Source: Blastococcus colisei (GTDB taxonomy: Bacteria; Actinomycetota; Actinomycetes; Mycobacteriales; Geodermatophilaceae). From it: 64,000 nucleotides of DNA. The position numbers and the translations under genes were made by a program. Of the stretch, positions 25,912 through 30,328 are shown piece after piece. Every line of letters starts with the position of its first letter. The stretch's first letter is position 1. A model generated the notes under the pieces. It ran no database searches. It had not been told where the DNA came from and saw only the letters and a list, made by a program, of their open reading frames with translations. The stretch lies in the NCBI RefSeq assembly GCF_006717095.1, contig NZ_VFQE01000001.1, positions 2,976,001-3,040,000 on the forward strand, written 5' to 3'.

Positions 25912-25927
25912 TCGAACAAGTGTTCGA
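25912..25927. promoter_or_regulatory. LexA-binding SOS box of dinB
   Basis: TCGAACAAGTGTTCGA is a perfect inverted repeat (TCGAAC-N4-GTTCGA) and matches the actinobacterial SOS box. It lies 17 nt before the dinB ATG, inside the presumed promoter. It is also the only strong regulatory site in the 225-bp gap shared with the divergent repeat-peptide cassette. Confidence 0.9.
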
Positions 25928-26077
25928 TCCTGTGATCCGGACAGTACCGACCCGGACAGCGGGACGCGCGCGGCGGCGCGGCGTCGTGTCGTGGTCGTGA
26001 CCTGGCGGCGTCGTCGCTGGTCGGCTGGTGAGGAGTGCAGGTGTCGGACGAGGATGACGGAGGTATCAGCGACGGGA

Positions 26078-26120: not shown

Positions 26121-26405
26121 ATGGCTCTCGACGACGACGACATGACCAGCACGGAAGGTCCGGCCGACGGCGGGGCCTCGGGCAGCCCGGGCACCCACGA
26201 CGGCGGCGCGGACGGCGGAGCCGACAGCGGCGCCCACGGCCCGGCTGACGGCGGAGCCGATGGCGGCTCCGACGGCGGAGCCGATGGGGGCGCGGACGGC
26301 GGTGCCGACGGGGGTGCCGACGGGGGTGCGGACGGCGGAGCCGACGGTGGTGCCGACGGTGGCGCCGATGGCGGTGCCGACGGTGGCGCGGACGGTTCGG
26401 CCTGA
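26121..26405 (+). CDS. Ala-Asp-Gly-Gly repeat peptide (possible modified-peptide precursor)
   Basis: I do not know an assigned function for this 94-residue protein. It starts MALDDDDMTSTEGP, followed by about 40 residues of irregular Gly/Ala/Asp sequence, then one SDGG and nine perfect ADGG units and the ending ADGSA. There is no signal peptide, membrane segment, cysteine or lysine. GGAG lies 6 nt before the ATG at 26121. It is followed directly by a cupin_4/JmjC-type oxygenase and a ferredoxin-like protein. The repetitive acidic sequence beside an iron oxygenase suggests it is the substrate, for example for beta-hydroxylation of Asp; that is inference. The codons for the repeats vary (GAC/GAT, GGC/GGT/GGG/GGA), so the protein repeat has outlived recent DNA duplication. 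Confidence 0.75.
   Translation: MALDDDDMTSTEGPADGGASGSPGTHDGGADGGADSGAHGPADGGADGGSDGGADGGADGGADGGADGGADGGADGGADGGADGGADGGADGSA
26280..26387 (+). repeat. 12-bp tandem repeat, nine units, coding for ADGG
   Basis: Nine units of the form GCC-GAC-GGN-GGN run without interruption. Wobble bases differ between units, so the repeat is stronger at the protein level than at the DNA level. On the opposite strand it creates a long spurious frame reading Ala-Pro-Pro-Ser repeats. Confidence 0.9.
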
Positions 26406-27688
26406 CCGAGGGCCTGACCATCCAGGGCCGGGCGGAGCATGAGCTCCGCCCGGCCCTGCGGCGGTGCACGAACATCGACCCGCGCGTCTTCGCCGAGCAG
26501 TACTGGTCCCGCCGGCCGCTGCTGACCCGCGCCGAGGACACCGGCGGCTCCTTCACCGACCTGCTCGACCTGGCCGCCGTCGACGAGCTGCTCTCCCGCC
26601 GCGGACTGCGCACGCCCTTCCTGCGCATCGCCAAGGACGGCGCCGTCGTCGACCCCGAGCGCTTCACCACGTCCGGGGGCGCGGGCGCCGAGATCGGCGA
26701 CCAGGTGTCGTCGGACGCGGTGCTGCGACTGTTCGCCGACGGCAGCACCGTCGTGCTCCAGGGCCTGCACCGGCTCTGGCCGCCACTGATCGAGTTCGCC
26801 GACCAGCTGGCCGCCGACCTGGGCCATCCCACCCAGGTCAACGCCTACGTCACCCCGCCGTCCTCGCGCGGGTTCAGCCCGCACTACGACGTGCACGACG
26901 TCTTCGTCCTCCAGGTGGCCGGCGAGAAGCACTGGACCATCCACGAGCCGGTGCTGCGCGACCCGCTGCGCACCCAGCCCTGGAACGACCGTGCGGCCGA
27001 GGTCGCCGCGGCCGCGGAACGCGAACCGGTCATCGACGCGGTGCTGCGACCCGGCGACGCGCTCTACCTGCCCCGCGGCTACCTGCACTCGGCGAGGGCC
27101 CTGGGCGAGATCAGCGCGCACCTGACCATCGGGGTCCACTCGGTGACCCGGTGGGCGGCGGCCGAATCCGCCCTGGACCTGGTCCGCACCCTCGCCGCCG
27201 ACGACCCGGAGCTGCGCGGCTCCCTGCCGCTCGGGGTCGACCTGAGCGATCCCGGCTCGGTCCGCGACGAGGTGGCCGCGGTGATCGCCGGCCTGCAGGA
27301 GTGGCTGGGCCGGGTCGACCCCGCCGAGGTCGCCGACCGGCTGCGCGCCGGCACCTGGGCGCAGGTGCGCCCCGAGCCCGTGGCCCCGCTGACCCAGTCC
27401 GCCGCGGCCGCCGCGATCGGCCCCGGCACGGTCCTGCGGCTGCGCCGCCGGCTGCGGTGCAGCCTGCGGGACGCCGCCGACGGCCGGGTGACCCTGCTGG
27501 CCGGACGGCGCTCGCACTCCTTCCCGGCCGACGTGGGAGACGCGCTGGCCGCGCTCCTGGAGGTCGGTGAGCTCGAGGTCGGTGACCTGCCCGGCCTGGA
27601 CCCCGACGATCGGATCACCCTCGCGAGGCGGCTGGTGACCGAGGCGATCGCCACCGTCCCCGATGCGGGGACGACCACCGCGCCGTGA
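26402..27688 (+). CDS. Cupin_4/JmjC-type Fe(II)/2-oxoglutarate oxygenase
   Basis: The family hydroxylates protein side chains (RoxA/YcfD acts on a ribosomal-protein Arg; MINA53/NO66 on His). From 26402 the product is about 428 residues. Cupin_4-like sequence begins at FAEQYWSRRPLLTRA (about 30). The iron triad is H161-x-D163 (SPHYDVHDVF) and probably H229 (LYLPRGYLHSA). A C-terminal winged-helix-like region follows. The start is unusual: no in-frame ATG, GTG or TTG exists between the stop at 26246 and the GTG at 26705, which would lose about 75 conserved N-terminal residues. The best candidate is CTG at 26402, overlapping the TGA of the repeat-peptide gene in the NTGA manner seen across this genome. 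The stop overlaps the next gene's GTG. Confidence 0.8.
   Translation: MTEGLTIQGRAEHELRPALRRCTNIDPRVFAEQYWSRRPLLTRAEDTGGSFTDLLDLAAVDELLSRRGLRTPFLRIAKDGAVVDPERFTTSGGAGAEIGDQVSSDAVLRLFADGSTVVLQGLHRLWPPLIEFADQLAADLGHPTQVNAYVTPPSSRGFSPHYDVHDVFVLQVAGEKHWTIHEPVLRDPLRTQPWNDRAAEVAAAAEREPVIDAVLRPGDALYLPRGYLHSARALGEISAHLTIGVHSVTRWAAAESALDLVRTLAADDPELRGSLPLGVDLSDPGSVRDEVAAVIAGLQEWLGRVDPAEVADRLRAGTWAQVRPEPVAPLTQSAAAAAIGPGTVLRLRRRLRCSLRDAADGRVTLLAGRRSHSFPADVGDALAALLEVGELEVGDLPGLDPDDRITLARRLVTEAIATVPDAGTTTAP
26423..26458 (+). other. Perfect 16-bp hairpin between repeat-peptide and oxygenase genes
   Basis: CAGGGCCGGGCGGAGC and its exact complement flank the loop ATGA. The hairpin starts 18 nt after the repeat-peptide stop codon and lies in the first codons of the oxygenase if that starts at 26402. 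No U tract follows. It could act as a partial terminator or an mRNA-stabilising element that gives more peptide than enzyme, and it could hinder translation of the oxygenase. Confidence 0.7.
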
Positions 27689-28620
27689 CGGCGAACAGCG
27701 CCCCGCCGGAAGGCACCCGGCCGCTGGGGCGGCTCGACGACAGCCGCTGCTCGGTCCAGGCCCTGGTCCGGGGCGACTCCCCCGTGGCGACCGCCTCCCC
27801 CGCCCAGCGCTGGCTGCTGATCGAGCAGCCGGGCCCCTGGGGACGCGACGCGCTGACCGAGTCACGGTTCGACGCCGAGGTGGCGCCGCTGCTGGCGAGA
27901 CGGTCCCGCGCCGAAGGGGTGCGGCTCCTGCTGGTCCGCCGCCCCGGGGACCGGCTGGCCGACTCCGGGCGCCGCTGGGCCTACGCCGACAGCCGCCCGG
28001 GGCACGAAGGGCTGTGGTGGTCGGTGCGGACGTCGGACGCCGACCTGCTCACCGCGCCCTGGGACGGATCGGTCGGCGCAGCGGCACCCGGCCCCACCTA
28101 CCTGGTGTGCACGCACGGCGGGCACGACGCGTGCTGCGCGTTGCGCGGCCGGCCCCTGGCCCGCGCCCTGCCGGCGCCGGGACCGGCCGACGTCTGGGAG
28201 TGCAGCCACCTCGGCGGTGACCGGTTCGCCGCCAACGTGCTGGTGCTGCCGCACGGCTTCTACTACGGGCAGGTGCCGGGCGACGGCGCCGACCTGGTCG
28301 CCGCGCACACCCGCGGCGAGGTGGCACTCCCCTGGTTGCGCGGGCGGGCCGGCGTCCCCCCGCCCGGGCAGGCCGCCCAGCACTTCGCCCGCGGCGAACT
28401 GGGACTGTTCGGCCTCCACGACCTGCCGGTGGTCTCGATGGAGCAGCGGACGCCGCCGGGCTCGGAGATCGAGCGGTGGGTGGTGACCCTGGCCGGCCCC
28501 GACGGGGACGTCGTCACCCGCGTGGAGAGCCGCCCGTCGACCGTGGCCGCCCGGCTGACCTGCCGGGCCACGCATCAGGCGCACTCGCGCACCTGGCACG
28601 TGACGTTCGCGGCGGCCTGA
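27685..28620 (+). CDS. Sucrase/ferredoxin-like (Suc_Fer-like) protein
   Basis: A 311-residue protein whose central region matches the Suc_Fer-like family, a thioredoxin-fold ferredoxin-like group: VCTHGGHDACCALRGRP (141-157), then VWECSHLGGDRFAANVL (170-186). Cysteines 142, 150, 151 and 173 are the candidate 2Fe-2S ligands. The family's physiological role is unknown. The GTG at 27685 overlaps the oxygenase stop, so the two are translationally coupled. An electron-transfer or redox-sensing role for the oxygenase or its peptide product is plausible but unproven. Confidence 0.85.
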   Translation: MTANSAPPEGTRPLGRLDDSRCSVQALVRGDSPVATASPAQRWLLIEQPGPWGRDALTESRFDAEVAPLLARRSRAEGVRLLLVRRPGDRLADSGRRWAYADSRPGHEGLWWSVRTSDADLLTAPWDGSVGAAAPGPTYLVCTHGGHDACCALRGRPLARALPAPGPADVWECSHLGGDRFAANVLVLPHGFYYGQVPGDGADLVAAHTRGEVALPWLRGRAGVPPPGQAAQHFARGELGLFGLHDLPVVSMEQRTPPGSEIERWVVTLAGPDGDVVTRVESRPSTVAARLTCRATHQAHSRTWHVTFAAA

Positions 28621-29034: not shown

Positions 29035-29418
29035 TCAGCTCGCCGGTACTGCCATGAGTTCCCAGAGACCGGTGATCTGCAACGGCCGCCGCACTGCCCG
29101 GCCACCACCGCGGACAGCGAGCTCGATTCCGTCGGCCCGGGCCAGGCGGTGAGCCTCTGCCAGAACGGTGAGCCCGGCGGAGTTGAGGAACGTGACTCCG
29201 GTCAGGTTCACGATCACCTGCGTGCACGGTGGCCGCAGGCAGCTGACGAGTGCCGAACGGAGCACCGGCGCGGAGACGGAATCGATCTCACCGGTCGGCG
29301 CCACCGTCACGGCTGTGCCGGAATCCGACGACACCACCTCGATGCCGAGCAGATCGTCTGCCACGAACAACTGAACATCGTCGGTGTCCGAGCCGTCGCG
29401 CCCAGCAGAGGAATCCAC
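29035..29418 (-). CDS. STAS domain anti-sigma factor antagonist
   Basis: A 127-residue SpoIIAA/RsbV-like protein. An acidic N-terminal stretch (1-30) precedes a STAS domain: VTVAPTGEIDSVSAPVLRSAL, then VIVNLTGVTFLNSAGLTVL, where the serine of LNSAGL is the usual phosphorylation site. Such proteins release a sigma factor by binding its HATPase anti-sigma factor. The adjacent HATPase-like gene is truncated, so the working partner may be elsewhere. GTG start at 29418. Confidence 0.87.
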   Translation of the reverse strand: MDSSAGRDGSDTDDVQLFVADDLLGIEVVSSDSGTAVTVAPTGEIDSVSAPVLRSALVSCLRPPCTQVIVNLTGVTFLNSAGLTVLAEAHRLARADGIELAVRGGGRAVRRPLQITGLWELMAVPAS

Positions 29419-29587: not shown

Positions 29588-30328
29588 CTACCCGGAGGTC
29601 TCGTCGGATCCCTCGCCGACGGCCCGCACGATGTCCGCGGCAATCGTGCGGAGCTTGACGTTGCGGCCTTGCGAGGCGCTGCGCAAGATCTCGAAGGCCA
29701 TTCCCGACGAGCATCGCTGCTGGGCCATCAGGATGCCGATGGCCTGGTCGATGATCGAGCGGGAGGTCAGCGCCTCCGCCAGCTGCTGACCGTGGCGCGT
29801 GCGCTCGGCCAGGCGGAGCGCGACGCCGACCGCACCGGAGGCCTGCTGTGCCCAGCGTTCGGCCTGGGCTCGGGTCTCGGCGTCGAAGGTGCCTGCTTCG
29901 GTCGAGTACAGGTTCAGTGCCCCGAAGTGCCGGCCATCGACTCCCATCGGGGTCGAGAGCACCGACCGCACTCCTTGAGCCAGGGCATAGCTGCGGTAGT
30001 TGCCCCACCGATCGTCGACGGCCATGTCCGGGGCGGACACGACGGCGCCGGTGCGCATGGACTCCAGGCACGGACCCTCGTCCTGGGCGTACTGGATCTC
30101 GTCGGCCCGTGCGGCCAGGTCGTCGCTGCTGGCCACAGTCCGCGTCTTGTCGTCCAAGCGCACGGTGATAGCGCACGACCCGTGCCCGGCCGCGGCCAGT
30201 TGCACCAGCTCGTCGAGGAACTCGGTCATCCCCTCCGTGCTCAGGATCAGTTCCTGCAGGGCGGACTGGTCGACGCGTGCATCCTCGTCCGTCGTGGGCG
30301 TGGGGGTGTCAGCCATCGAGTCGGCCAT
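29588..30328 (-). CDS. GAF and ANTAR domain-containing RNA-binding regulator
   Basis: A 246-residue cytoplasmic regulator. A GAF domain spans about 30-170 (ITVRLDDKTRTVASSDD, DEGPCLESM, LSTPMGVDGRHFGALNLYS), and a C-terminal ANTAR domain about 180-235 (ALTSRSIIDQAIGILMAQQRCS). ANTAR domains act as antiterminators by binding paired hairpins in leader RNA. Proteins of this architecture are common in Actinobacteria beside STAS genes and respond to stress. It starts MADSMADTP at the ATG 30328; a second Met is four codons in. Confidence 0.9.
   Translation of the reverse strand: MADSMADTPTPTTDEDARVDQSALQELILSTEGMTEFLDELVQLAAAGHGSCAITVRLDDKTRTVASSDDLAARADEIQYAQDEGPCLESMRTGAVVSAPDMAVDDRWGNYRSYALAQGVRSVLSTPMGVDGRHFGALNLYSTEAGTFDAETRAQAERWAQQASGAVGVALRLAERTRHGQQLAEALTSRSIIDQAIGILMAQQRCSSGMAFEILRSASQGRNVKLRTIAADIVRAVGEGSDETSG

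Follow-up and report, generated by a model that had tools for sequence, protein, structure and literature searches.

MINA53, NO66 and ycfD, oxygenases that act on ribosomal proteins, hydroxylate C-3 of His or Arg, as an excerpt of PMC4543633 (PubMed Central, PMC) states. Proteins of their family, JmjC_2 (PF08007), are fused in some eukaryotes to folds resembling the recognition element (RRE) of ribosomally synthesized and post-translationally modified peptides (RiPPs), and bacterial homologues occur in 'RiPP-like genomic contexts', according to excerpts of PMC12710340, where Xia et al. 2025 is one of six references for those homologues. In clusters of the biphenomycin type, the JmjC/cupin hydroxylases BpmG and PbsQ hydroxylate ornithine (Orn) of the precursor, as described in an excerpt of PMC12257519. 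Here we analyse a cassette in a 64,000-nucleotide stretch of Blastococcus colisei DNA (NZ_VFQE01000001.1, positions 2,976,001 to 3,040,000; hereafter the window, on which coordinates are based), in which a JmjC_2 oxygenase gene follows a gene for a peptide built of Asp-containing repeats. A small gene of this kind beside that of a modifying enzyme, conserved as a pair, is a mark of RiPP systems, and such a pair is found here. We read the cassette as a RiPP-like system making multiply β-hydroxylated Asp peptides, perhaps under stress, and put the probability of this reading at roughly 0.57.

The cassette comprises three plus-strand genes, encoding the repeat peptide, the oxygenase and a Suc_Fer protein, each overlapping its neighbour by 4 nucleotides (CTGA and GTGA). 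Its features are as follows.

26041..26066, plus strand: promoter-like element GTGT-N16-AGGTAT, about 60 nucleotides 5′ of the peptide start, resembling sigma-B-family promoters.
26121..26405, plus strand: putative precursor peptide gene, 94 residues, with an acidic start (MALDDDDMTST), an Asp-rich core with 13 ADGG units and a conserved end (ADGSA).
26280..26387, plus strand: nine consecutive perfect ADGG units, with codon differences all at the third position.
26402..27688, plus strand: JmjC_2 (cupin_4) 2-oxoglutarate (2OG) oxygenase, 428 residues, with an inferred start at CTG 26402 in the CTGA overlap; the nearest solved structures are NO66 and MINA53.
26882..26890, plus strand: H161-x-D163 of the iron triad, invariant in alignments; the third ligand, H240, lies at 27119-27121.
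27685..28620, plus strand: Suc_Fer-like thioredoxin-fold ferredoxin, 311 residues, with the GTGA overlap at 27685-27688 and the motif C142-x8-C151 ... H175-x3-D179.

The peptide, MALDDDDMTSTEGPADGG...ADGGADGSA, holds 13 ADGG units in total, nine of them in the unbroken run. An earlier note on this DNA had described three plus-strand genes in tight order and varied codons within the ADGG units, and both descriptions stand; the nine perfect units are also there, but the peptide does not end in them, since ADGSA comes after. Pairwise comparison of the nine units gave 0, 0 and 78 differences at codon positions 1, 2 and 3. The repeat is therefore maintained at the protein level and not merely in the DNA, and a chance or DNA-level repeat is ruled out. 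A GGAG lies directly 5′ of the peptide ATG, and of 72 peptide starts, all but two have a Shine-Dalgarno-like motif ahead of them (70 of 72). Neither Pfam nor NCBIfam gave a match for the window peptide or a model for any of the peptides tried. Inspection by eye revealed no evident signal peptide, and the precursor is probably cytosolic. Elsewhere, the repeat peptide of locus L154 is interrupted by a non-repeat insert, LIDKVRDKVRDVIGGDKG, and locus L020 has a second array of ten ADGG codon units (999-1118) several hundred bases upstream of the precursor array, possibly another precursor gene.

The oxygenase frame lacks ATG, GTG and TTG from the upstream stop to position 26705, which lies about 100 residues inside the conserved protein; the start is most likely CTG 26402, within the CTGA that also holds the peptide stop. 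Gene callers that disregard CTG may cut about 100 residues from the oxygenase by starting it at 26705 instead of 26402. The CTGA junction recurs in all 43 loci of the family Geodermatophilaceae that were read at the junction. This overlap, together with the lack of an ATG, GTG or TTG start in the window, would suit a repeat open reading frame (ORF) that acts as a translational leader, coupling or tuning oxygenase expression, or that is a frameshifted oxygenase N-terminus. We regard such a role as barely credible: codon drift within the array is purely synonymous, repeat number varies freely and, outside the family, both the base before the stop and the stop type vary (CTGA in 14, GTGA in 10 and others in 6 of 30 junctions), with some oxygenases, for example at L036 and L043, having a separate ATG of their own 3′ of the peptide stop.

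Against Pfam, the oxygenase matched JmjC_2 with an E-value of 9.1e-28 and 96.8 bits (curated cut-off 22), and it is the one PF08007 match in the source genome. Two alignments with the window protein among their rows (18 and 30) show no variation at H161, D163, H240 or K176, which bears out the H-x-D...H iron triad previously noticed in this protein; K176 we take to be the 2OG-binding Lys. In a structure-sequence search by profile, the best solved relatives were NO66 and MINA. In the best NO66 chain, 4y4r, the profile covered residues 38-443 and, here alone, reached the C-terminus; in the other NO66 chains it extended over roughly the first two thirds. Ribosomal-oxygenase-like JmjC_2 enzymes have a C-terminal winged-helix domain.

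The pairing of peptide and oxygenase was followed first within the family, where 108 of 112 genomes, from 12 of 12 genera, have an oxygenase match. Thirty loci from these 108 genomes were read, two of them cut by a contig end, and the repeat peptide lay directly upstream in all 30. The ends of the family peptides are constrained, with a start like MALDDDDMTS and a tail of GADGSA or nearly so, and the number of repeats is highly variable. The near-universal oxygenase makes the cassette in this family resemble core physiology and not an optional antibiotic. Other neighbours recur in the family only, on the dinB side and among them an opposite-strand phosphodiesterase and a methyltransferase (some of these annotated); we judge them unrelated, as the cassette occurs outside the family without them.

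Beyond the family, at least 552 named relatives matched, and we read the best 80, among them Kribbella, Paractinoplanes, Actinokineospora, Cellulomonas, Herbiconiux and Saccharopolyspora. Seven loci with less than 300 nucleotides upstream were excluded (L156, L159, L163, L167, L175, L177 and L184; three show a partial repeat), and the repeat peptide was upstream in the remaining 73 of 73, with no start codon located at L190. An even sample of the class, 344 genomes, gave 115 with a match; for 55, among which is the window's genome, the match was at E<=1e-70. Loci were read in 90 of the 115, the 25 left out being nearly all weaker matches. All 55 class loci at E<=1e-70 have an Asp-rich small ORF upstream. 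The DNA pattern DGGADGxA, counted when present at least four times on one strand and tallied by eye, occurs in 28 of the 55 class genomes with an ortholog versus 4 of the 289 without. In a phylum sample, 46 of 296 genomes matched at E<=1e-20. Outside the class, 20 places from 19 genomes were taken, and L212 and L220, lacking upstream sequence, were dropped; an Asp-rich peptide precedes the oxygenase in all 18 readable loci, nearly always of another kind, for example DGDATDTTDGD. For the combined loci of window, class and phylum, a small ORF with at least 13% Asp, a threshold set after earlier loci had been viewed, lies upstream of 99 of 108 JmjC_2 proteins versus 20 of 436 control ORFs. The system appears to be real and, though patchy, widespread, in about 1 in 6 sampled genomes. 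The earlier note had named a repeat gene absent beside most oxygenase homologues as the finding that would speak against its proposal, and the 30 family and 73 named loci, all with the peptide, show the reverse. Among 20 plasmid records at E<=1e-20, all fell below 60% identity and none covered more than 80% of the query, so plasmids hold no close relative.

Across the class and phylum loci, the peptides fall into three types, assigned by simple rules on Asp-containing motifs or Asp content, with a few rows placed in other clades (L093 and L117, for example). Type A, at 52 loci, has ADGG or GPADGG..HDGGADG repeats; type B, at 28, has DGTD and DADA repeats; type C, at 13, is a peptide of 35-38 residues, mostly EVTSRDxTAGGDxDGTDxSSDFI. 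When five peptide labels were placed on a tree of 108 oxygenases, 11 changes were needed versus a shuffled mean of 49.8, which shows clustering but not independent events, as this FastTree phylogeny contains close relatives and its branches are long. The repeat protein occurs together with the oxygenase and changes in parallel with it, and both findings support the claim that it is the substrate; we consider an enzyme-substrate relation between the two very probable on these grounds.

Alternatively, the peptide could be an independent, hydrophilin-like stress protein, with an oxygenase merely co-transcribed and modifying, for instance, a ribosomal protein as NO66, MINA53 and ycfD do. Hydrophilins and LEA-like (late embryogenesis abundant) proteins are Gly-rich, highly hydrophilic and stress-induced; the 73 named peptides are 38% Gly and 17.8% Asp, the promoter-like motifs resemble a stress type, and the oxygenase is itself kin to ribosomal oxygenases. 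Peptide type nevertheless changes in step with oxygenase clade, and one of those types, the peptide of 35-38 residues, is unlike a hydrophilin. The pairing is also kept while the other neighbours compared differ between groups. We therefore find such independence improbable, and prefer a peptide that serves as the precursor.

Type C may itself be a second RiPP-like pairing, without Suc_Fer in the fetched stretch: the conserved peptide stands beside a distinct JmjC_2 clade at L095, L100-L102, L104-L108, L110, L111, L113 and L114. A third repeat style, TDQGVxGGTYGPRDAG, lies beside a DGTD-clade oxygenase at L210. At L088, a Cys- and Tyr-rich peptide ending in FLICDPDPSDDCWIVCNPNYCY stands beside a JmjC_2 protein, and its composition makes it perhaps akin to the substrates of the reported 2OG-dependent Cys-Tyr cross-linking.

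Core composition bears on which residue would be modified. Asp is present in 100% of type A-C cores, partly by construction of the types, and is followed at +2 by Gly, Ser or Thr in 1069 of 1104 cases in the 73 named peptides. His occurs in 85% of type A cores, 14% of type B and none (0%) of type C; for Cys the shares are 0%, 4% and 0%. These shares, like the preference at +2 and the Ala and Gly contents given below, do not follow from the rules that defined the types. With His, Cys and other possible targets lacking in many cores and Asp plentiful, Asp is the best candidate target, as had been proposed from the window alone. By analogy with NO66 and MINA53, the His of the G-H-D-G-G motif might be modified instead: the named peptides contain 86 HDGG motifs, and the nearest kin hydroxylate His, as the excerpt of PMC4543633 has it. 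With His missing from 15% of type A, 86% of type B and all type C cores, and with the L007 peptide a natural His-free variant, core composition makes a His target very unlikely.

The oxygenase could also act on the peptide with another outcome, such as desaturation, cross-linking, oxidation of Gly or Ala backbone carbons, or oxidative cleavage of the chain. Every core contains Ala and 96-100% contain Gly, and 2OG enzymes in RiPP pathways can join Cys to Tyr or break the backbone by oxidation, as summarised in an excerpt of PMC12636437. The nearest solved kin, though, are C-3 hydroxylases; type A and C cores are without Cys, and no type has Tyr in more than 10% of its cores. On this evidence we think a different chemistry unlikely, and regard hydroxylation of Asp as somewhat favoured. 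As to recognition, 27 of the 52 type A peptides carry a leader-like start motif similar to LDDDDIxT or LSDEDIxT, as do 20 of the 28 of type B, where chance would give 0.2 in either set; among the named peptides, 63 of 73 have it.

The third protein matched the Pfam family Suc_Fer-like (PF06999), to which Apd1 and Aim32 belong, at 2.5e-17. With this match and the CX8C motif, its earlier description as a Cys-rich, thioredoxin-fold, ferredoxin-like protein holds. HX3D is present in 14 of 15 aligned Suc_Fer proteins, with Cys in place of Asp at L191. A Suc_Fer gene lies at 68 of the 80 named loci, one of the 12 misses being a cut locus, and, outside the class, at 17 of the 20 places taken, of which L211 and L212 have short or truncated sequence. 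Across the class and phylum loci, the fetched stretch contains the gene for most type A peptides (45 of 52) and nearly all of type B (27 of 28), but for none of type C (0 of 13) and at none of the remaining loci (0 of 15), which supports the proposed link of Suc_Fer to the cassette. When ORFs of at least 80 residues at 64 loci were clustered, none of the 40 largest clusters apart from the oxygenase and Suc_Fer was shared between loci of the window's family and loci beyond it; a wall-associated material, suggested in the earlier note, finds no support among these clusters. That Suc_Fer is an electron donor restoring oxidised iron in a many-turnover enzyme is a tentative assignment, which we hold at less than even odds.

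Upstream of the peptide, the strict pattern GNNTN14-16GGGTA[CT] occurs within 200 nucleotides at 12 of 29 loci outside the family versus 6 of 223 other ORFs (in shuffles, 0.26 on average and at most 2). A looser form, [AG]GGTA[ACT], picked after the sequences had been viewed, is found at 24 of 43 family loci versus 5 of 234 other ORFs (in shuffles, 4.2 on average and at most 9), mostly 57-66 nucleotides 5′ of the start. Streptomyces coelicolor sigma-B-family promoters such as GTTAGA-N13-GGGTAC, given in an excerpt of PMC8346170, are like the strict form. Stress control of the cassette is plausible from these motifs, most of all outside the family. Iron or zinc regulation was set aside, as simple IdeR- and Zur-like patterns gave no upstream site in 72 loci. 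At 24 of 72 named loci, LexA-like sites precede the peptide; in the window, a LexA-like palindrome at 25912-25927, TCGAACAAGTGTTCGA, adjoins the start of a divergent minus-strand dinB-like gene (IMS family), to which we assign it, and SOS control of the cassette was rejected. Just downstream of the cassette, the minus strand carries a STAS-domain gene (29038-29418) and a GAF-ANTAR regulator gene (29588-30328). Partner-switching STAS regulators, the type encoded at 29038-29418, are often tied to stress sigma factors.

Taken together, we propose a minimal RiPP-like system. Its first gene would encode the precursor, in which numerous Asp-containing repeats come after a short acidic start, and the NO66-like JmjC 2OG oxygenase encoded by the second would act on this precursor repeatedly. 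Most likely it would hydroxylate C-3 (β) of Asp in A-D-x-G units, the carbon equivalent to that hydroxylated by MINA53, NO66 and ycfD. The thioredoxin-fold iron-sulphur protein encoded by the third gene may keep the oxygenase iron reduced across turnovers, and expression would seemingly come from a general-stress (sigma-B-type) promoter in many lineages. The predicted product is an acidic poly-β-hydroxyaspartyl peptide rich in Gly, which might serve inside the cell as a protectant through hydration or metal binding; such a protective function is doubtful on present evidence. A broader version, in which a phylum-wide, hitherto undescribed class of ribosomal peptides has its Asp repeats converted to a poly-β-hydroxyaspartate stress protectant or metal binder by an NO66-like oxygenase, often with a ferredoxin, the substrate being the peptide and not the ribosome, is possible but falls well short of probable.

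Several observations weigh against the proposal. The universality of Asp is partly circular, because the peptide types were defined by Asp-containing motifs, which slightly lowers our estimates for Asp hydroxylation and for the proposal as a whole, and both the 13% Asp threshold and the looser promoter pattern were chosen with sequences in view. The strict promoter pattern is found in 0 of 43 family loci. No Asp-rich upstream ORF was found at 9 of the 108 loci (L086, L098, L099, L103, L109, L112, L115, L116 and L118); all nine are weak matches (E 8.9e-47 or worse), and other equally weak matches do have the peptide. Among the 99 counted as positive, L088, L091, L117 and L119 have doubtful, non-repeat upstream ORFs. 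At L070 and L074, from one genus, a non-repeat Asp-rich ORF ending DDPELxGADLxEDQ...GPTxEPGA replaces the ADGG peptide. The start motif, a narrow and post hoc pattern, was not found in 25 of 52 type A and 8 of 28 type B peptides, and it follows that either the core is recognised directly or leaders differ. The C-terminal region of the oxygenase gave no convincing Pfam or PDB sequence match to an RRE, a domain that not every RiPP system has. No conserved protease or exporter was seen among the 40 largest neighbour clusters; in RiPP systems such a neighbour is common without being universal. Suc_Fer was not found in the fetched stretch at L210, and of seven type A genomes without a nearby copy, four carry one elsewhere and three have none at E<=1e-8; with some lineages lacking it, Suc_Fer cannot be essential everywhere. 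Lastly, the distribution is patchy, at 55 of 344 class genomes (E<=1e-70) and 46 of 296 phylum genomes (E<=1e-20).

If the proposal is true, about 1 in 6 of the phylum genomes sampled would produce an acidic peptide with many hydroxylated residues, one easily overlooked because its gene is short, repetitive and without a Pfam or NCBIfam model. It would supply a substrate for many bacterial PF08007 enzymes and add polymer-like, multi-site modification to the peptide repertoire. Poly-hydroxyaspartate, which might bind iron or calcium, would also become accessible by a genetically encoded route.

Among the matches listed in the open-licence PMC literature, no paper dealt with ADGG or Asp-rich JmjC-linked peptides or with Suc_Fer in connection with RiPPs. 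Within those listings, Pfam and NCBIfam, the system appears undescribed, in keeping with the earlier claim that no described system has this form. Like NO66, MINA53 and YcfD, the window oxygenase has the JmjC_2 Pfam domain, the HxD...H triad and the invariant Lys. Unlike these enzymes, which target one His or Arg of a ribosomal protein, it is paired with a repeat peptide of its own, in which the predicted target is Asp in many repeats. Clusters of the biphenomycin type, as far as the excerpt describes them, likewise direct a JmjC hydroxylase to a ribosomal precursor peptide; there, however, Orn tailoring takes place amid genes for MNIO (multinuclear non-haem iron-dependent oxidative) enzymes, radical SAM enzymes and proteases, whereas Suc_Fer is the sole other recurrent enzyme here and the peptide is a tandem Asp repeat. 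The reported Cys-Tyr cross-linking enzyme of Xia et al. (2025, JACS; via an excerpt of PMC12636437) is also a 2OG oxygenase acting on a RiPP precursor, but the type A and C cores here are without Cys. The window Suc_Fer protein shares PF06999 and a retained C-x8-C with Apd1 and Aim32; Aim32 has CX8C-Xn-HX3H (excerpt of PMC8482512), whereas the window protein has HX3D, the second His ligand being replaced and HX3H itself absent. Both ingredients, a RiPP-like precursor and a 2OG oxygenase, are known separately, and the modified product is putative.

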